DNA of 64,000 bases, taken from contig NZ_CP092497.1 of the NCBI RefSeq assembly GCF_022479115.1, forward strand, positions 8,742,001 through 8,806,000, in the 5' to 3' direction. The DNA comes from Amycolatopsis sp. EV170708-02-1 (GTDB lineage: Bacteria; Actinomycetota; Actinomycetes; Mycobacteriales; Pseudonocardiaceae). Shown piece after piece: positions 47,465-54,258 of the stretch. The notes under the pieces are model-generated. The model had not been told where the DNA came from. It searched no databases and saw only the letters and a list, made by a program, of their open reading frames with translations. The position numbers were made by a program, and so were the translations under genes. Each line of letters opens with the position of its first letter. Position 1 is the stretch's first letter.

Positions 47465-48139
47465 CTATTCTGCGCCTCGCGCCGGAGGACCGAGGAACAA
47501 CCCACCGCTCGCGTCGAGGACCTGCCCGGTCACCCACCGGGCGTCGTCGGAGACGAGGAACGCGACGACGTCCGCGATGTCCTCCGCGGTACCGAGCCTC
47601 CGGTGCGCGGTGAGGCTCGCGATCGCGGTTGTCAACTCGGGCGTGAAGATCTGGCCGTTGTCCGCGGTCCTGGTGGCGCCCGGCGCGACGACGTTGACCG
47701 TGATGCCGCGGGGTCCGAGCTGGTGGGCGAGGGTGCGGCTCATCGTTTCGAGCGCTCCCTTGGTCATCGCGAAGGACGTTTGTGCCGGGTTGGCCATCCT
47801 GGTGGCGACCGACGAGACGTTGACGATGCGGCCGCCGTCGTTCAGCGGCGCCCGCTGGATGAGGAAGTACGGCGCCTTCACGTTCACCGCCATCAGGTGG
47901 TCGAAGCTTTCGGGCGTGTCGGTCTCGATCGGCCCACGCGGCGCGGCGGCCGCGTTGTTGACCAGGATGTCCAGGCTGTCGATGCCCTCCAGGGCTTTGT
48001 CGACTCCCTCCATGGTCGACAAGTCGCCCTTGGCGCTGTCATGCCTTCGGACTTCGATGCCGTCCTTCTCCAACCTGCGCGCGATCGCCGCCCCGATCCC
48101 CCGCGACGCCCCGGTCACCAATGCCGTCTTCATGCGCAC
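47465..48139 (-). CDS. SDR-family protein with Phe in place of the catalytic Tyr
   Basis: 224 residues. The NAD(P) motif TALVTGASRGIGAAIARRL, LDILVNNAAAAPRG and GGRIVNVSSVATRMANPAQT are classic SDR. The catalytic YxxxK reads FAMTKGALE: the codon is TTC, so the Tyr is lost while Ser and Lys stay. It may be a non-catalytic binder, a very slow enzyme, or use another residue. It is divergent from a TetR gene with a perfect operator between, so regulation by that repressor is likely. The SWIM-finger gene follows in the operon. Confidence 0.85.
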   Translation of the reverse strand: MRMKTALVTGASRGIGAAIARRLEKDGIEVRRHDSAKGDLSTMEGVDKALEGIDSLDILVNNAAAAPRGPIETDTPESFDHLMAVNVKAPYFLIQRAPLNDGGRIVNVSSVATRMANPAQTSFAMTKGALETMSRTLAHQLGPRGITVNVVAPGATRTADNGQIFTPELTTAIASLTAHRRLGTAEDIADVVAFLVSDDARWVTGQVLDASGGLFLGPPARGAE

Positions 48140-48145
48140 CCCAGA

Positions 48146-48160
48146 TGTTAGTGACTAACA
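48146..48160. promoter_or_regulatory. TetR operator between SDR and TetR genes
   Basis: TGTTAGTGACTAACA is a perfect 15-bp palindrome centred on one G, 7 bp upstream of the SDR start and 20 bp from the divergent TetR start. Size and place suit a TetR-family operator. Confidence 0.8.
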
Positions 48161-48179
48161 CTTTGATAGTGTCTACCAC

Positions 48180-48737
48180 GTGAGCCTCCGAGACCGCCAA
48201 CGCGCCGAAACCCGCCTCGCGGTCCAGACTCACGCCATCCGCCTCTTCACCGACCGCGGCTACGACGCGACCACCGTCGCCGACGTCGCCGCGGCCGCCG
48301 GCGTCTCGGCGATGACGGTCTACCGGCACTTCCCGACGAAGGAGGACCTGGTCCTCTACGACGAATACGACCCCGTGACCGCTTCGGCCGTCGCTGCCGC
48401 GCCTCCTGGCCCCTTGCCCGCGCGGATCGGACACGCGCTCTCGGAGACGGCCGCTCACGGGTCCTCATCGGAGAAGGCGTTCCTGCTGGCGCGGCTGCGG
48501 CTGATGATCTCGGTCCCGGCGCTGCGGGCGCGGCATCTGGACAGCCAGTACGCGACGGCCGATGCGATCGTGGGCGCCCTCGACTGCTCACCCAAGGAGG
48601 AGTTTCGGGTGCGGGCTACGGCTATGGCGTGCCTTGGGGCGGCGCATGTGGCGCTGCTTCGGTGGGCGGAGACGGATGGGGAGGCGGATCTGGCGGGTTT
48701 GATCCGCGAGGCGCTGACCAGCGCTTTTGGGACTTGA
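48180..48737 (+). CDS. TetR-family regulator
   Basis: 185 residues, GTG start. The helix-turn-helix (RLAVQTHAIRLFTDRGYDAT, TVADVAAAAGVSAMTVYRHF, PTKEDLVLYDEYDP) is typical of the MftR-like group. The C-terminal half (EKAFLLARLRLMISVPALRA; ATAMACLGAAHVALLRWAET) is a normal ligand domain. It likely represses itself and the divergent SDR/SWIM operon. Its end meets the island with the SRA-HNH nuclease head on. Confidence 0.9.
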   Translation: MSLRDRQRAETRLAVQTHAIRLFTDRGYDATTVADVAAAAGVSAMTVYRHFPTKEDLVLYDEYDPVTASAVAAAPPGPLPARIGHALSETAAHGSSSEKAFLLARLRLMISVPALRARHLDSQYATADAIVGALDCSPKEEFRVRATAMACLGAAHVALLRWAETDGEADLAGLIREALTSAFGT

Positions 48738-48739
48738 TC

Positions 48740-49915
48740 TTAAGTGTAGTGCTCTCGATGGTAATCGAGATGATCCTTATCAATGTGGTGATCTACATGC
48801 TGGCGAAGCTCGCTTACCACCTCGCCATGCACGACCACCTTCATATCCTCACTAATCACCATGGCCCCATAATCAAACAGCACATGGCAATTAGGGCATA
48901 GACAAAGGACGTTCGAGTAGACATCTGGACCATTATGCGGACGCCCAAGGCCGCGAATATGAGCTCCTTCAGAATAGGCTTTGTCGCCAATTCTCAGTCG
49001 AACCCCACAAGTTTGACACACGTCGTTATGCACTTGCTTCACATAGTTGACCACCTGAGTGGACCTAATCAAGCGCTGGACCTTGGCCGCCACTCGGACA
49101 GGAGCGTCGTTGCCTGCGGGAATCGGCAGCAACGCCTGAGTTTGTGGCTCAACAGCCACCACGGCCTCGGCCACCAGCTTGATCATGCGAAACTGGCAAA
49201 CCGTGAAGCCATCCGCGCCAGCCTGAAGCCACACCTCGGCAACCCGGTAGAGGCCGTCATAGCGAAGACCTGAATCTGGCGCATAGGAGTTTTTCTTGTC
49301 AGCCCCACGAATTACCCGAACAGGCTCACCAGTCACACTGCTTTTCACCAAGGCAGCGTTTCCACTGGCCTTGAAACTTTGATCTTCAATTTGCTTGCCC
49401 GACGGACCACGTCCACCATGGCCGGTATAGATGATTTCGTCACCAAAGTCTTTGTCGTCCGAGTACCCGCCAGAGACAACGATCGACTTCGCCCCAGTTT
49501 CGCCAGTTCCAGAAATACCAGCCTGCAGCTGCCTGTGGACTCCGCGATCGAAAGCGTCTCGCCTGTTGACGAAGGTGGTCCCCTCAGGGATACCAGGGAT
49601 CTCCCCGAATCCTTCTCCGCCGACAGCTAGCCGGTGAGTTTCGACGTTCCTAAACTCGAACCCGAGACGCCCCAGGCAGGCAACTAGCTTTTCTTCTGCC
49701 GCCCCAAAATCAGCCGCACCAAGCTCCGCACCGACCGTCGAGCGGTGCGCGGACACCACGAGCGCCTTCGCGTCGTAGTCCGCCCCCTCGTGCATCACTA
49801 CGTAGCGAGATGCACGCGTCACACCCTGCAGACGCCTGAAGCGCTCGGCGCCGACGTTGTCGTGCTCAGCGATCGCCGCAAGCACCGCTTCTCGAGAGAT
49901 GTCTTTCAAGCCCAC
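48740..49915 (-). CDS. ScoMcrA-like type IV restriction endonuclease (SRA + HNH)
   Basis: 391 residues. An N-terminal head of about 85 residues (LKDISREAVLAAIAEHDNVG; FGAAEEKLVACLGRLGFEF) is shared with the second nuclease of this island. An SRA/YDG domain follows at about 105-260 (GTTFVNRRDAFDRGVHRQLQ; GDEIIYTGHGGRGPSGKQIE; LRYDGLYRVAEVW), which flips out 5-methyl- or hydroxymethyl-cytosine. A C-terminal HNH domain has the zinc and catalytic residues (CQTCGVRLRIGD; EGAHIRGLGRPHNGPD; NVLCLCPNCHVLFDYGAMV). The order SRA-HNH is that of ScoMcrA from Streptomyces, which cuts modified DNA. The region is lower in GC than its surroundings, a sign of transfer. No strong ribosome site at the GTG start. 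Confidence 0.85.
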   Translation of the reverse strand: MGLKDISREAVLAAIAEHDNVGAERFRRLQGVTRASRYVVMHEGADYDAKALVVSAHRSTVGAELGAADFGAAEEKLVACLGRLGFEFRNVETHRLAVGGEGFGEIPGIPEGTTFVNRRDAFDRGVHRQLQAGISGTGETGAKSIVVSGGYSDDKDFGDEIIYTGHGGRGPSGKQIEDQSFKASGNAALVKSSVTGEPVRVIRGADKKNSYAPDSGLRYDGLYRVAEVWLQAGADGFTVCQFRMIKLVAEAVVAVEPQTQALLPIPAGNDAPVRVAAKVQRLIRSTQVVNYVKQVHNDVCQTCGVRLRIGDKAYSEGAHIRGLGRPHNGPDVYSNVLCLCPNCHVLFDYGAMVISEDMKVVVHGEVVSELRQHVDHHIDKDHLDYHREHYT

Positions 49916-50274
49916 AACAAGACGCTAGGCCAACTTGCGGCAGCGCAACACCCTCAACCAGACGAACATCAACTTTGTCTTCGCCTCGCGACTACACGCT
50001 CTCGCCACAGGTCCACGCCCGCTACTTGAAGAACGAGATCGATAAATAGCATTGCGCTACGTTGACTCATCAGCCATAGTTAGAGCACTCGACCAATCCC
50101 AGGAGCAGTCATGATGAACATGAACGAGCGAAAGGCGCAGCGCCGGCATTCGACCGTCGCGCCCATCGCCGCATGTCCGTCGCCCTGCTCCTGGCGACGT
50201 TCATGCCGGGCTGACCAGCGGATTCTGGTCGACAAGGGCTCCCCATCATGACGCCATAGCGCGTGTGATGCCAG
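49916..50274. other. Non-coding stretch between nuclease and tRNA array
   Basis: About 360 bp with lower GC than the chromosome around it. A 48-codon frame starts at ATG 50112 after AGGAGCAG, but it has no signal, family or codon bias to support a gene. It probably contains the promoters of the divergent nuclease and of the tRNA array. Confidence 0.35.
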
Positions 50275-50316
50275 GGAGCCGCCCATCGGGAAACCGATCC
50301 GGGCGGCTTCTCTTTT
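50275..50316 (+). terminator. Strong hairpin ahead of the tRNA array
   Basis: AGCCGCCC (50277-50284) pairs with GGGCGGCT (50301-50308) with an inner ATCGG-GAAA-CCGAT stem and GAAA tetraloop, followed by TCTCTTTTG. It would end plus-strand transcripts entering the tRNA array from the left, although no gene is evident before it; a leader or remnant transcript is possible. Confidence 0.7.
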
Positions 50317-50338
50317 GCTGCGCAAAAAGCAATTCCCT

Positions 50339-50407
50339 ATCGGCGAGCTTGGGAAGCGGAACGGCCTCCAAAACCGTATCCAGGGGGTTCGACTCCTCCC
50401 GCCGGTG
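50339..50407 (+). tRNA. tRNA-Trp-like gene (CCA anticodon), irregular D-arm
   Basis: Acceptor ATCGGCG pairs with CGCCGGT (one wobble); T-arm GGGGG-TTCGACT-CCTCC; anticodon loop CTCCAAA gives CCA (Trp), with a C-A mismatch closing the stem. The D-region of 15 nt cannot form the usual D-stem with a GG loop. At 69 nt it is short. Either a degenerate or phage-type tRNA, or a pseudogene. It begins the array. Confidence 0.5.
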
Positions 50408-50528
50408 CTCGACGCTGCCTAGTCAGTGCGAACGTTGATAACAGAAGACTTTTCCCAAAGCTTGTCCCCGTCGCCGAAAGAGGCAGCCAGGACGAGCGCC
50501 GGTGGAGGCGTGCACTCGTCTCCACCTC

Positions 50529-50602
50529 GCCCCTGTAGCTCAGGTGGACAGAGCGCCGCACTACGAATGCGGAGGTCCCAGGTTCAAGTCCTGGCAGGGG
50601 TA
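50529..50602 (+). tRNA. tRNA-Arg (anticodon ACG), island copy
   Basis: Canonical fold: GCCCCTG/CAGGGGT acceptor, GCTC/GAGC D-stem, CCGCA-CTACGAA-TGCGG anticodon arm (ACG), CCAGG-TTCAAGT-CCTGG T-arm, discriminator A, no encoded CCA. It differs from the chromosomal tRNA-Arg(ACG) at 52325-52398, so it is imported rather than a local duplicate. Confidence 0.9.
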
Positions 50603-50637
50603 CTGGTCGGCGTATCGGAGGGGGATACGCCGGTCGA

Positions 50638-50711
50638 CGGATGCGAGGGGCACTGGCGACCCCGCCTGATTTGGGATCAGGAGTCACCGCGTTCGACTCG
50701 CGGGCGTCCGA
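50638..50711 (+). tRNA. tRNA-Pro (anticodon TGG)
   Basis: CGGATGC/GCGTCCG acceptor, GGGG/CCCC D-stem, CCTGA-TTTGGGA-TCAGG anticodon arm (TGG), CCGCG-TTCGACT-CGCGG T-arm, discriminator A, no CCA. Third member of the array, 35 bp after tRNA-Arg. Confidence 0.88.
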
Positions 50712-50727
50712 CGAGACAGTGCGGCAA

Positions 50728-50816
50728 GGAGGATTGGCCGAGCCTGGTAAGGCAACCGTCCCGAAAACGGTAGTCGGCGTGAGAGCGTCGCGCAGGTTCG
50801 AATCCTGCATCCTCCG
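50728..50816 (+). tRNA. tRNA-Ser (anticodon CGA), unusual C33
   Basis: GGAGGAT/ATCCTCC acceptor with discriminator G, GCC/GGC D-stem, ACCGT-CCCGAAA-ACGGT anticodon arm (CGA), long variable arm and GCAGG-TTCGAAT-CCTGC T-arm. Position 33 is C in place of the almost universal U, which should affect decoding. Confidence 0.85.
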
Positions 50817-50819
50817 CAA

Positions 50820-50891
50820 GCCCTCGTGGTCCAACGGATACGACGCCGGCGTCCGAAGCCGGGAACGCAGGTTCGACTCCTGCCGAGGGCA
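50820..50891 (+). tRNA. tRNA-Arg (anticodon CCG)
   Basis: GCCCTCG/CGAGGGC acceptor, GTCC/CGAC-type D-stem, CCGGC-GTCCGAA-GCCGG anticodon arm (CCG), GCAGG-TTCGACT-CCTGC T-arm, discriminator A. Only 3 bp separate it from tRNA-Ser, as in processed tandem arrays. Confidence 0.9.
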
Positions 50892-50906
50892 CGATGACCT
50901 GCACTT

Positions 50907-50978
50907 GGCCCACTTCACGACGGTCGTGCGGCGGCTTGCAAAGCCGTTGGACTCCGGGTTCGACTCCCGGGTGGGTCT
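50907..50978 (+). tRNA. tRNA-Cys (anticodon GCA)
   Basis: GGCCCAC/GTGGGTC acceptor (one wobble), CAC/GTG D-stem, GCGGC-TTGCAAA-GCCGT anticodon arm (GCA), CCGGG-TTCGACT-CCCGG T-arm, discriminator T. Last tRNA of the array, 110 bp before the second nuclease gene. Confidence 0.88.
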
Positions 50979-51087
50979 CCGCCGCAGAGTGACCACCTCG
51001 CGACACAGTTGCGTAGGTGGCAACAGAGTTCCACCGCCGCAAGCTCCTGCGCTACATTCGGACGTACGTTCGATTGGGGGTAGCTAG

Positions 51088-52254
51088 GTGTCTTTGAAGG
51101 AGCTCACGAGTCGCGACGCGGTGCTCAAGGCAGTACATCAGTGCGATGTCATCGACCCAGGAGCGCTCGGAGCCGGGTTCACTCGTGCCTTCGTCCTCGA
51201 ACTCGACGGCAAGTACTACCACGCCGAGAGAGTCGCCAGTCTCGCATACACCGTTCAGTACCCAGACCGCGACGAACTCCCCGTCTCCGATCTCACCGGA
51301 GAAGCCGCAGCACGCCGCCTCAGTCGGCTTGGCTTCGCAAGCTCCACAACGGCCCGGTTATGGCCTCCACTACTGGGGGCGGAGTACCCCAACCGAACCG
51401 CCATCCGGAACACCTTTGGTGGCAACGGGGTCGCCGGGATCACCACGTTTCTTGGCGACAGTGTCCTCAACATCTTCTCTGACGAAGAGGGTCCATACGC
51501 CGACGAACCACCAGACGCAGTAAACCCCTTTGAGTACCGCGGCGAGGGGCGCGCTGGCCATCAGAAGCTGTTACGGGGGAACAAGGCACTCGACAGCGCT
51601 CGCAAGAATCGCGAGGCGGTGCGGTATTGGTACCGACCGGCCGGCGGCACCTTCAAGTTCACCACGTGGGTGGCAATCCTTAGCCGAGCGCAGGTGTGGT
51701 CACCTGACGACAACAAGCAACTCCGCCTCGAGTACGCGTTCCAGGTGATGGCAGTCCCCGGTCCCAAGCTAGACACTTGGCCGGCTCAGGTACGAAAGCT
51801 CATCGACAGCGGAGACATCAAGGACACACCTCCGCCGCAGCCGCCAGACAAGAACGCCACAAGCGGTCAGCGCAAGAAGACCTACCAGGACTACCTTCGC
51901 CTTATCGACAAGCCATCAAACGCTGGTCGCGGTGGACGTAAGCCGACTAAGGGAAGCCGGAATCTCTATCCTCGCAGCCGCAGCGTGCGAGATGCGGTGC
52001 TCATCCGCGCGGACGGCGACTGCGAGAACGACAAGTGCACAGGCATGCCCTTCGACACCGCACCTGGTGGCGAGTCCATCCTCGAAGTGGACCACGTCGA
52101 CGATCTCGCACTCAACGGGCTTGATCACCCATCCGTCATGATCGCGCTGTGTCCTAACTGCCATGCGGCAAAAACCCGCGGGGGTAACCGCGCGGCCATC
52201 AAGCGCTATTTCCGCGCCAGGGCTGCCGAACTCCACCGTAAGGCCAACCAGTAA
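51088..52254 (+). CDS. ScoMcrA-like HNH endonuclease without a recognised SRA domain
   Basis: 388 residues from GTG 51088, after a GGGGG site. The head (LKELTSRDAVLKAVHQCDVI; GEAAARRLSRLGFAS) matches that of the SRA-HNH protein on the other side of the tRNA array. The centre (TAIRNTFGGNGVAGITTFLG; YADEPPDAVNPFEYRGEGRA; GTFKFTTWVAILSRAQVW) looks like another target-recognition domain in place of the SRA. The HNH end carries VRDAVLIRADGDCENDKCTG, SILEVDHVDDLALNGLDHPS and IALCPNCHAAKTRGGNRAA, with catalytic His and zinc cysteines. Likely a restriction enzyme against phage or modified DNA. GC is below the chromosome's. Confidence 0.85.
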   Translation: MSLKELTSRDAVLKAVHQCDVIDPGALGAGFTRAFVLELDGKYYHAERVASLAYTVQYPDRDELPVSDLTGEAAARRLSRLGFASSTTARLWPPLLGAEYPNRTAIRNTFGGNGVAGITTFLGDSVLNIFSDEEGPYADEPPDAVNPFEYRGEGRAGHQKLLRGNKALDSARKNREAVRYWYRPAGGTFKFTTWVAILSRAQVWSPDDNKQLRLEYAFQVMAVPGPKLDTWPAQVRKLIDSGDIKDTPPPQPPDKNATSGQRKKTYQDYLRLIDKPSNAGRGGRKPTKGSRNLYPRSRSVRDAVLIRADGDCENDKCTGMPFDTAPGGESILEVDHVDDLALNGLDHPSVMIALCPNCHAAKTRGGNRAAIKRYFRARAAELHRKANQ

Positions 52255-52271
52255 CACTCCACACAGGACAG

Positions 52272-52304
52272 ACAAAAAGGCCCTCCCGCGAACGGGAGGG
52301 CCTT
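52272..52304 (-). terminator. Terminator of the tRNA-Ser/tRNA-Arg unit
   Basis: AAGGCCCTCCC (52277-52287) pairs with GGGAGGGCCTT (52294-52304) around a 6-nt loop. On the minus strand it is followed by TTTTTGTCTG. It lies 20 bp past tRNA-Arg and marks the intact end of the host unit next to the island. Confidence 0.88.
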
Positions 52305-52324
52305 AGTGCTGTCTCAACCAGACG

Positions 52325-52398
52325 TGCGCCCGAAGGGATTCGAACCCCTGACCTTCTGATCCGTAGTCAGATGCTCTATCCAGCTGAGCTACGGGCGC
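52325..52398 (-). tRNA. tRNA-Arg (anticodon ACG), chromosomal copy
   Basis: GCGCCCG/CGGGCGC acceptor, GCTC/GAGC D-stem, TCTGA-CTACGGA-TCAGA anticodon arm (ACG), GGG-type T-arm with TTCGAAT, discriminator A. Its 3' end faces the nuclease/tRNA island, a common attachment site in actinomycetes. Confidence 0.93.
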
Positions 52399-52440
52399 TT
52401 GTTCAGTTATCAATCTAGCACCTGCCGGAACAGGCACCAG

Positions 52441-52529
52441 CGGAGGCTCCGGGATTTGAACCCGGGAGGGGGGTTACCCCCAACCGCATTAGCAGTGCGG
52501 CGCCATAGACCAGACTAGGCGAAGCCTCC
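52441..52529 (-). tRNA. tRNA-Ser (anticodon GCT)
   Basis: GGAGGCT/AGCCTCC acceptor with discriminator G, CCGCA-CTGCTAA-TGCGG anticodon arm (GCT), long variable arm with TTGGGGG/CCCCC pairing, CCGGG-TTCAAAT-CCCGG T-arm. Transcribed with the downstream tRNA-Arg. Confidence 0.92.
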
Positions 52530-52557
52530 CAGGCCCAACGACCACTGCTCAAATAGG

Positions 52558-54258
52558 TTACACACCCCCTGGCCCCCCTCGGAAGGCACCCCCCTTAGAC
52601 GCGTTGCAACGCTCTGAGCAGGCCGGATGGGCGTCCGCCGAGGCCTTCGGCTTCGAAGACGGCGACGCCGACTCGGGGAGATCGCGGGCCGCGGGGTAGG
52701 CGAGGTAGCGCGGGACCCAGCGCGGCTGGAACTTCGCGTTGAAGCGGTAGAGGGTCTCGATCTGGATCCAGCGTGAGAAGAATCGCAGTGTCCGGGCGGA
52801 CAGGCGGGCGACGGGGCCGGCGCCGATGCGCTGGCCTTGTTCCAGCACCGCCCGGAAGGCGGCGAAGTTCAGGGAGACGTGCCGGGCGGGGGTCGTCAGG
52901 AGAAGTTCGGAGATCATCAGTTCGTTGACGCCGTTGTCGGCGGTCCGGTCGCGGCGCATGACGTCCAGCGACAGGCCCTTCTCGCCCCAGGGCACGAACT
53001 GGAGGACACCGCGCACCCGGCCGTCGTGTTCGGCGGTCACCAGGACCGAGCCCGGGTCGCCCATGCGGCCGAGGGCCATCGAGAAGCCGCGTTCCGTATC
53101 CGTGCCGCGCCAGGTGGCGGCTAGCGCGCGGAGTTCCTCCAACTCAGCCAAGGGCAGGTCTTCGGCTTTTCGGATGCGTGCGGTGTAGCCGGCGCGCTTC
53201 GTGCGTGAGACGGCTTGGCGGACTCCGCGCATGACGCGGCCTTCGAGGGTGAAGGTGTCGGTGTCGACGACGGCTTCGTCGCCGATCTCCAGCACTTCGA
53301 GCCCGAAGCGCGCCCAGACGGTCGCGCCCAGTTCCGAGCAGCCCATGGTCGCCGGGGTCCAGGCGTACCGGCGGCAGACGTCCAGGTACTCCTCGATCGC
53401 GCCTGGCCACGCTTCCGGGTCACCGAGGGGGTCCGCCGAGCACAGCGCGACCCCGGCGATCACCCGATAGGTCACCGCGGCCTTCCCCGACTTCGAGAAG
53501 ACCACGAACTTGTCCCGGCGCAGCGCGAAGTACCCGAGCGAGTCCCGCTCCCCCAGCAGGCCCCTGAGCCGCTCGACCTCGTCGTCGGTCAGCTCCGGCG
53601 CGGGTTCGGCCGAGCGGAGCAGGAAGTACGCCGCCAGCAGCACCGCGCCGATCCCGAACAGCAGGCCGACCGCGGCCGAAAGGTCTTCCAGCCACAGCGC
53701 GGGGAACGTCACCGGGCCGCTTACGCCGACCAGGGCCAGCGTCGACTGCGCCAGGCGGTCGCCGATACTCCAGGAGCCGAGCGCGACCGACAGCAGCGCG
53801 AAGTTGATCGCGACCCCGGCCACCGTCAGTTGCAGGAAGACCCGGATCGCGCGCCACCGGCCGGTCACCGGATCGGGCAGCGCGATGAAGTGCCGTCGCG
53901 TCGCGATCAGGGCGATCAGCAGCGAGAGCGACACGAGCCCCGCGCCGAGGGTGTGCCGCAGCCCGAGGTGCGACACCGTCAGCAGCGTCGCGGCGGCGAC
54001 CGCCAGCTGCCAGGCCCGGCGCTTCCGCCGTTTGAGACCGGTGGCGAGCAGCATCAGCAGCACGCCGGTGACCAGCGCGACCGTGGCCGCGCCGACCGTG
54101 GCCTCGTGCGGCAGTTCCAGCCAGGTGGCGACGCGTCCGCGCAGGGTGCGCCCGGCCGGGACCAGCACCGAGATCAGGGTCAGCAGCCCGGCCAGCCGCG
54201 TCACCCAGGTGATCACCGCCACCGAAGTGGCGCCCGCCACCCGCCAAGCACCTGCCAA
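52558..54258 (-). CDS. MprF/LysX-like phosphatidylglycerol lysyltransferase (DUF2156)
   Basis: 566 residues. About six membrane helices fill the first 240 residues (SVAVITWVTRLAGLLTLISV; VGAATVALVTGVLLMLLATG; AVGLLFGIGAVLLAAYFLLR). The cytosolic C-terminal domain is of the DUF2156 dual-GNAT type (DSLGYFALRRDKFVVFSKSG; VALCSADPLGDPEAWPGAIE; DVMRRDRTADNGVNELMISE; HVSLNFAAFRAVLEQGQRIG). Such enzymes move lysine (or another residue) from aminoacyl-tRNA to phosphatidylglycerol, lowering the surface charge and protecting from cationic peptides. The start is uncertain (TTG 54258 or GTG 54240). It sits 12 bp after the acetoacetyl-CoA synthetase gene and next to tRNA genes. Confidence 0.85.
   Translation of the reverse strand: MAGAWRVAGATSVAVITWVTRLAGLLTLISVLVPAGRTLRGRVATWLELPHEATVGAATVALVTGVLLMLLATGLKRRKRRAWQLAVAAATLLTVSHLGLRHTLGAGLVSLSLLIALIATRRHFIALPDPVTGRWRAIRVFLQLTVAGVAINFALLSVALGSWSIGDRLAQSTLALVGVSGPVTFPALWLEDLSAAVGLLFGIGAVLLAAYFLLRSAEPAPELTDDEVERLRGLLGERDSLGYFALRRDKFVVFSKSGKAAVTYRVIAGVALCSADPLGDPEAWPGAIEEYLDVCRRYAWTPATMGCSELGATVWARFGLEVLEIGDEAVVDTDTFTLEGRVMRGVRQAVSRTKRAGYTARIRKAEDLPLAELEELRALAATWRGTDTERGFSMALGRMGDPGSVLVTAEHDGRVRGVLQFVPWGEKGLSLDVMRRDRTADNGVNELMISELLLTTPARHVSLNFAAFRAVLEQGQRIGAGPVARLSARTLRFFSRWIQIETLYRFNAKFQPRWVPRYLAYPAARDLPESASPSSKPKASADAHPACSERCNASKGGAFRGGPGGV

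Follow-up and report, generated by a model that had tools for sequence, protein, structure and literature searches.

A predicted attenuator leader with codons matching the downstream tRNAs precedes a tRNA gene array in Amycolatopsis

It has long been asked why extra tRNA arrays are carried by bacteria, plasmids, and phages, and the question is raised by a locus of Amycolatopsis sp. EV170708-02-1 in which a short tRNA array lies between two nuclease genes. We analyzed this locus within a 64,000-nucleotide stretch, hereafter the window (G000:C1:8742001-8806000, on contig NZ_CP092497.1 of a 9.66-Mb genome, G000); coordinates are those of the window unless another locus is named. An earlier interpretation made from these letters alone (the sequence-only reading) had proposed that tRNAs and nucleases form one paired defense island or else that the array simply marks an integration hot spot. 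Comparison with relatives documents, computationally, the parts of a leader that precedes the array, their conservation, a match between its codons and the downstream tRNAs, its occurrence beside tRNA genes, and the separate histories of array and nucleases. As judged from these features, the array is very probably under a ribosome-mediated transcription attenuator, the regulatory codons of which are those of the tRNAs supplied.

The array is encoded on the forward strand. ARAGORN identifies five tRNA genes within 50529 to 50980, namely, Arg(ACG) (50529 to 50603), Pro(TGG) (50638 to 50712), Ser(CGA) (50728 to 50817), Arg(CCG) (50820 to 50892), and Cys(GCA) (50907 to 50980; short D-arm, 32.3 bits); Rfam at gathering score recovers three of the five. 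The sequence-only reading had counted six tRNA-like genes, and the sixth, a degenerate Trp(CCA)-like gene with a very short D-arm (about 50338 to 50407), stays below the threshold of the tRNA-clan model (22.7 bits against 47). It has a mean identity of 95% over ten aligned strains and occupies the place of Trp(cca) in larger arrays. The D-arm loops of the Trp-like and Cys genes measure only about 3 nt in most strains, and Cys genes with the same short D-arm type are found again in other units. Read by eye, the anticodon loops of both array tRNA-Arg genes differ from those of the chromosomal copies, and a C replaces the U before the anticodon of the array tRNA-Ser(CGA) in 8 of the 10 aligned strains; in the relatives G008 and G046, the array tRNA-Ser has a UGA anticodon preceded by the usual U.

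The leader (50111 to 50316) is located 5' of the array, inside the conserved block, and consists of a 46-codon open reading frame (ORF), an antiterminator, and a terminator; the sequence-only reading had overlooked it, although it is the part of the locus that tells most. The ORF (50111 to 50251, forward strand, UGA stop at 50249 to 50251), the translation of which is predicted from sequence, follows a Shine-Dalgarno motif, AGGAG (50101 to 50105), that is kept in relatives; its length and frame are unchanged in all 10 aligned strains, which also retain the stop and the terminator. GGCUCCC at the end of the ORF can pair with the GGGAGCC that opens the terminator, yielding an antiterminator hairpin (50237 to 50280) with the leader stop codon inside (fold of 50236 to 50283: -26.2 kcal/mol, z -4.27). 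The intrinsic terminator (GCCGCCCAUCGG-GAAA-CCGAUCCGGGCGGC and a U-rich tail, 50278 to 50316) has GCC in common with the 3' arm of the antiterminator. The two alternatives are nearly balanced in the window (-42.1 kcal/mol for the antiterminator versus -44.4 kcal/mol for the terminator) and lie within 1 kcal/mol of each other in 10 of 24 leaders. The locus appears to hold all the parts of an attenuator: an ORF with a Shine-Dalgarno, cognate codons, a terminator, a competing antiterminator, and a stop codon at the antiterminator arm.

The same arrangement recurs elsewhere. A terminator hairpin precedes 22 of the 23 other arrays read (the exception is L151); in 18 of 22, an ATG with a Shine-Dalgarno is in frame with a stop located about 22 to 35 nt before the terminator, and the remaining four have a GTG start or a start outside the stretch analyzed. 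The stop-to-terminator distance is 22 to 30 nt (5th to 95th percentile), with 10 to 45 nt allowed in the search. Terminator pairing holds in 99.3% of the alignment cells of 24 sequences, and the outer stem of the antiterminator pairs in 92.2% of the cells of these model sequences, compared with at most 61.3% when slid. Outside the genus, we used 79 matches in 78 of 80 loci (L267 and L270 omitted, one weak second match in L259 included); there, the whole antiterminator pairs in 89.0% of cells, compared with at most 51.3% when slid, and 45 double-changed cells were counted against 22.0 in shuffles, none of 500 being as high, while slid controls of this covariation count favor a consensus-drawn structure. 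Over the leader, Rfam gave no match at gathering score, only weak unrelated ones (E 0.08 to 0.4), and no T-box was among the matches at E <=1 across 50050 to 51090. We also considered an ordinary small protein and rejected it as the main reading: the ten window-type leaders show no silent-site bias, and it is mainly both ends of the leader that are common to arrays.

A covariance model of the 3' part of the leader (R1, built with 24 of 26 listed leader sequences) has matches in 59 of 80 Amycolatopsis genomes. Across the family Pseudonocardiaceae, 112 of 297 genomes, from 15 of 46 genera, have a match, and often several (E <=1e-3). At 143 of 150 loci examined, which are the stronger listed matches and not a random sample, a same-strand tRNA gene is found no more than 600 nt away, and at least two are present at 115 of the 150. 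Loci L164 to L193 overlap those used for model building; outside model building, 112 of 119 loci have a tRNA within 600 nt, at a median gap of 54 nt. The window genome carries three matches, the window leader, a Glu(TTC) unit at 1160648, and a Leu(GAG)-Leu(CAG) unit at 1888832. The Glu(TTC) leader (L214) reads ...GMEEK..., with codons GAA GAA; L215 is the Leu-Leu unit. Searches across the order (36 of 397 genomes, 9 outside the family) and the class (2 of 394, one besides the window genome) gave ten outside-family matches, all weak (E 7e-6 to 8e-4). At the 5 of these 10 that were examined (L332 to L336), ARAGORN finds no adjacent tRNA, L332 having one 1.3 kb away, and the sequences of L332 and L336 resemble ordinary gene-end terminators. 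Because the outside-family matches are weak and those examined have no adjacent tRNA, we ascribe the predicted leader to Pseudonocardiaceae only. Some family matches near E 1e-3 may be due to chance, and diverged leaders elsewhere would escape R1. One strict leader-hairpin pattern had no match in IMG/VR.

For each unit, the share of leader residues whose amino acid is served by one of the unit's tRNAs was compared with that obtained when leaders are swapped among units, a procedure that keeps the GC-rich composition. The set comprised 132 of the 150 loci (1 to 8 distinct amino acids, leader of at least 14 residues) and was reduced to 75 clusters of dissimilar leaders, the remaining loci being dropped before counting. 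The share is 0.329, versus 0.203 in permutations (z 14.9), and none of 20,000 permutations was as high; read in its other two forward frames, this DNA gives z values of -0.5 and -0.2. Fixed windows of 30 codons before the stop, in which the start is not chosen, give a z of 10.7 (137 loci, 50 clusters), with four shifted frames at -0.2 to 0.5, and the 32 clusters outside the genus give 9.0. Counted back from the stop, the excess is 0.14 to 0.39 at codons -17 to -7, 0.07 to -0.01 at codons -6 to -3, and 0.04 at codon -1. It peaks just 5' of the predicted antiterminator arm, the geometry that attenuation would need.

Individual units illustrate this relation. A Leu(GAG)-Leu(CAG) unit (L312) has eight Leu codons in a row (CTC CTG CTC CTG CTC CTG CTG CTG), the leader of a Cys-only array (L237) contains eight Cys codons, and the leaders of an Arg-Glu-Ser-Ser array (L247) and a Trp-Asp-Phe array (L296) read MTSSERSSRRRSSS and MAATWDRADRDWFPDF..., respectively. 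Among nine homologous units picked by eye, leader codons 5 to 8 include Cys codons in the four that have both Arg and Cys tRNAs and are all Arg in the five that have Arg alone and no Cys tRNA. In the window leader, a run of 12 codons (50174 to 50209, CPSPCSWRRSCR), Cys-Pro-Ser-Pro-Cys-Ser-Trp-Arg-Arg-Ser-Cys-Arg, contains no amino acid other than those for which the array and the Trp-like gene would provide tRNAs, versus a best run of 9 for this set (R/P/S/C/W) among the 75 cluster leaders. A match at the isoacceptor level is only suggestive (Arg CGG, P = 0.003; Gln CAA, P = 0.017; Lys AAA, P = 0.014; Glu GAA against arrays without Glu, P = 0.003, but ttc versus ctc, P = 0.17), these tests having been chosen after the tables were seen and the P values being uncorrected.

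Several observations weigh against an attenuator of this kind. The terminator is favored by 8 to 14 kcal/mol in 5 of the 24 leaders. The outer stem of the antiterminator, which hardly varies, shows no covariation in the 24 model sequences, and all double changes of the 79 matches fall in the inner stem and none in the outer. Among the ten window-type leaders (45 pairs), amino-acid-changing codon differences outnumber silent ones by 651 to 177, as expected from selection on codon class alone and equally from an unselected ORF. Two antisense frames exceed permutation (z 2.0 and 3.1; the third is at -1.9), the match excess is 0.10 at codon -2 and 0.01 to 0.18 upstream of codon -17, and 4 of the 75 units match below the median. 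The five Arg-only units mentioned above have a Cys codon in the antiterminator arm, at position 13, and Cys also occurs in L285 (in RRCR), likewise an Arg-only unit. The window leader is not decisive alone, since 16 of the 75 leaders reach its whole-length R/P/S/C/W fraction. Finally, 7 of the 150 loci lack a tRNA at a distance of 600 nt or less; at one of them, five tRNAs lie farther away, and the other six have none anywhere in the stretch read.

From this anatomy, we infer a mode of switching, a trigger, and a benefit. When charged Cys, Pro, Ser, Trp, and Arg tRNAs are ample, the ribosome would reach the stop codon at 50249 and cover the 5' arm of the antiterminator; the terminator would then form and the array would be off. 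When one cognate tRNA is scarce, the ribosome would stall at 50174 to 50209, the antiterminator would form, and the array would be transcribed. We take the signal to be tRNA scarcity because more tRNA cannot relieve a lack of amino acid, and the likeliest trigger would be loss of the tRNA itself (through the tRNases of phage defense, toxins, or rivals) or codon demand.

The predicted leader has the same anatomy as trp/his-type attenuation of amino-acid operons (PMC1183508). However, tRNA genes would be regulated here, the codons match several amino acids and follow gene content, and the output would be the sensed molecule rather than a biosynthetic enzyme. The tRNA array units of Mycobacterium (PMC5966550) are alike in being dense arrays on actinobacterial chromosomes, plasmids, and phages, and the text of that paper does not contain the words promoter, leader, attenuat-, or terminator. 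Among the matches listed from the literature searched, which most subscription papers lie outside, we found no description of attenuated tRNA genes or arrays and no co-occurrence of "tRNA array" and "attenuator"; "ribosome-mediated attenuation" and "tRNA gene" co-occur only through a reference title on another subject.

What would such a switch serve? One reading, to which we give somewhat less than an even chance, is a self-sensing replacement of tRNAs, in which reserve genes would stay silent until those exact tRNAs are depleted and the leader ribosome stalls. The sequence-only reading had invoked a tRNA supply that resists phage anticodon nucleases; the predicted attenuator lends independent support to the idea of an emergency supply, with the supply belonging to the array alone and not to the nucleases. 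Phage-encoded tRNAs have been proposed to evade host tRNases (PMC10264068). A spare set is common to both cases, as is a Ro-like gene in a large Amycolatopsis array and in some Gordonia phages, whereas the present array is chromosomal, has few tRNAs, and is preceded by an attenuator-like leader. In that large array, the TROVE/Ro-like gene lies among 26 tRNAs (L130:9826-11436), and similar genes occur in phages of Gordonia and plasmids of Rhodococcus and Streptomyces; when the large array was searched against phages and plasmids, most of what matched was the Ro/TROVE gene or single tRNAs.

Alternatively, the same attenuator may be homeostatic, fitting tRNA supply to codon demand during growth rather than replacing damaged tRNAs, which we consider quite possible without favoring it. 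Single- and two-tRNA units such as the Glu(TTC) and Leu-Leu units of the window genome would suit this role. Against it, other copies exist in that genome for Arg-ACG, Arg-CCG, Pro-TGG, Cys-GCA, Trp-CCA, and Glu-TTC, as found in 20 fetched regions that hold part of its tRNA genes. Because other copies of those tRNAs exist, the units look like reserve copies. The large array that encloses a TROVE/Ro gene also points away from homeostasis; neither point is decisive.

That the array is what remains of a mobile tRNA array, unused and in decay beside an integration hot spot, seems unlikely to us, although it shares gene order with arrays elsewhere. A DNA search of the genus found tRNA arrays at unrelated loci as well, and the window array shares with them the dense tRNA genes that characterize mobile arrays. 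In the largest one read (L130, 26 tRNAs; L131 and L133 are similar), the order is Trp Tyr Arg(cct) Gly Glu Arg(acg) Asp Pro(tgg) ... Ser(cga) Lys Lys Arg(ccg) Asn ... Cys, and the window genes, Trp-like, Arg(acg), Pro(tgg), Ser(cga), Arg(ccg), and Cys(gca), are an ordered subset of the arrays at these three loci. Loss of Pro or Cys genes from some strains and the subthreshold Trp-like gene would also suit decay. The array tRNA genes (93.8 to 96.5% mean identity over ten strains; 84% for Cys, lowered by one deleted copy) fall below the chromosomal tRNA-Arg/tRNA-Ser pair (100 and 99.8%, nine strains) and do no better than the spacer of that pair (95.1%). However, the array spacers and leader reach only 54 to 90%, a range that all array tRNA genes except Cys exceed, so the tRNA genes are kept better than their own spacers, yet vary much more freely than housekeeping tRNA genes do. 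The leader frame, stop, and terminator kept in the ten strains, together with leaders elsewhere that track gene content, likewise argue against a remnant.

A leader sensing general ribosome stalling, caused for example by translation antibiotics, rather than particular tRNAs has a precedent in the attenuators with upstream ORFs that are already known for translation stress. Such a leader predicts no relation between codons and tRNAs, and the strong in-frame match, absent in the other forward frames, makes this reading improbable.

There remain the nucleases, which, as the sequence-only reading had observed, are directed outward and flank an array in a lower-GC block (0.586 to 0.645 across 48001 to 53000; elsewhere in the window 0.634 to 0.731, with the minimum within the first 9 kb). 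NucA (48740 to 49915, reverse strand; PF02182 5e-45, HNH_2 1.8e-9) combines a ScoMcrA-type head with SRA and HNH domains. Its head aligns to residues 6 to 94 of ScoMcrA (5zmm; 2.5e-16), and its residues 102 to 388 align to TagI (6ghs) over SRA and HNH (1.6e-87), which gives it the predicted architecture of the TagI group of SRA-HNH modification-dependent endonucleases. NucB (51088 to 52254, forward strand) matches the head, which the sequence-only reading had taken to be the same in both enzymes, only weakly (5.1 bits); a 90%-identical relative, P0121, carries a precomputed Pfam match to PF26345, which we take to be the ScoMcrA-like head. Different middle domains had been proposed for the two enzymes; instead, NucB residues 93 to 385 align to ScoMcrA 260 to 558 (4.2e-59; PADLOC mREase_IV 9.9e-59), a ScoMcrA-type SRA with HNH, so that both are SRA-HNH enzymes. 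The alignments of NucA and NucB both skip the sulfur-binding domain. NucA resembles TagI (PMC6212794) over SRA and HNH but has an additional ScoMcrA-type head, and NucB resembles ScoMcrA (PMC7461809; head-SBD-SRA-HNH, SBD being the sulfur-binding domain) over the aligned region but is shorter (388 versus 561 residues) and has no such domain. Many of the 120 relatives listed per nuclease combine PF26345 with PF02182 or with PF26348, and because both architectures recur among database proteins, the two are ordinary type IV restriction candidates.

The locus was located in relatives through an anchor gene for an LPG synthase C-domain protein (52558 to 54258, reverse strand; PF09924 2.3e-84). Its left flank is a TetR-family regulator gene (48180 to 48737, forward strand; TetR_N 1.8e-17), at or near the stop codon of which cross-strain homology ends (48718 to 48734 in relatives, except G066). 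The conserved right flank (52258 to 52529, reverse strand) holds a terminator and the neighboring chromosomal tRNA genes already seen in the sequence-only reading, tRNA-Arg(ACG) (52324 to 52398) and tRNA-Ser(GCT) (52440 to 52529), both found by ARAGORN on the minus strand. We read 19 close genomes at this site; 17 came from a search of 60 genomes for the anchor gene, and the other two, G066 and G072, were included because of nuclease or array matches, so that array and nuclease frequencies lean upward. The array is present in 10 of the 19 and both nucleases in 2; among the 17, the array is present in 8, a remnant in 1, and absent in 8.

As the sequence suggests, the nucleases are cargo of an exchange site for restriction systems between the TetR gene and tRNA-Arg: slot 1 is filled by NucA here and by other restriction cassettes in relatives, and slot 2, which holds NucB here, contains just 4 bp and no gene in G015 and G006. 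The notion of an integration hot spot survives in part, with sharp block borders and exchange of cassettes, and with no integrase named among the 30 cassette ORFs of relatives that were scanned. A C5 methylase gene is found at the site (48735 to 52258 here; in relatives, loci L032 to L045, L148 to L150, L157, L158, L161, and L162) in 14 of the 19 close genomes, and the five others have NucA/NucB or an AAA_5 cassette instead. PF00145 has no match in the whole G000 or G015 genome at E 1e-6, which would suit nucleases dependent on 5-methylcytosine; G066 and G008 have one or two matches elsewhere in the genome.

A paired island of tRNAs and two modification-dependent nucleases is very improbable: both nucleases flank the array in the window genome and G066, and G008 has a NucB relative beside the array, but NucA is missing there, 7 of the 10 array-bearing genomes have neither nuclease (searches at E 1e-3 and E 1e-60), and the slots vary as described. 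Moreover, NucA relatives away from this locus occur in 16 of 18 genus genomes matched, with no tRNA in the 4-kb stretches read, and the NucB relatives in G074 and G045 likewise have no tRNAs in the stretches read. A separate NucB search of genome contigs gave four loci. Nucleases and array have independent histories. The sequence-only reading had named such histories, or a core array free of nucleases, as arguments against its pair; arrays free of nucleases do exist, although the array does not belong to the core genome of Amycolatopsis.

The locus thus splits into a site of restriction-cassette exchange and an old tRNA unit that appears to be regulated, the two being only seemingly linked. 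A leader that names its tRNAs in codons would make the genome sequence a readout of selected function and the question of why extra tRNA arrays are carried testable. It would also bring tRNA genes under the classical logic of attenuation, known from amino-acid enzymes, with the product being the partner of the sensor codon. If self-sensing replacement is true, many units would travel as mobile arrays, their leaders and gene content co-evolving with gain and loss, and Pseudonocardiaceae would possess a general means of countering immune systems and toxins that cut tRNAs.

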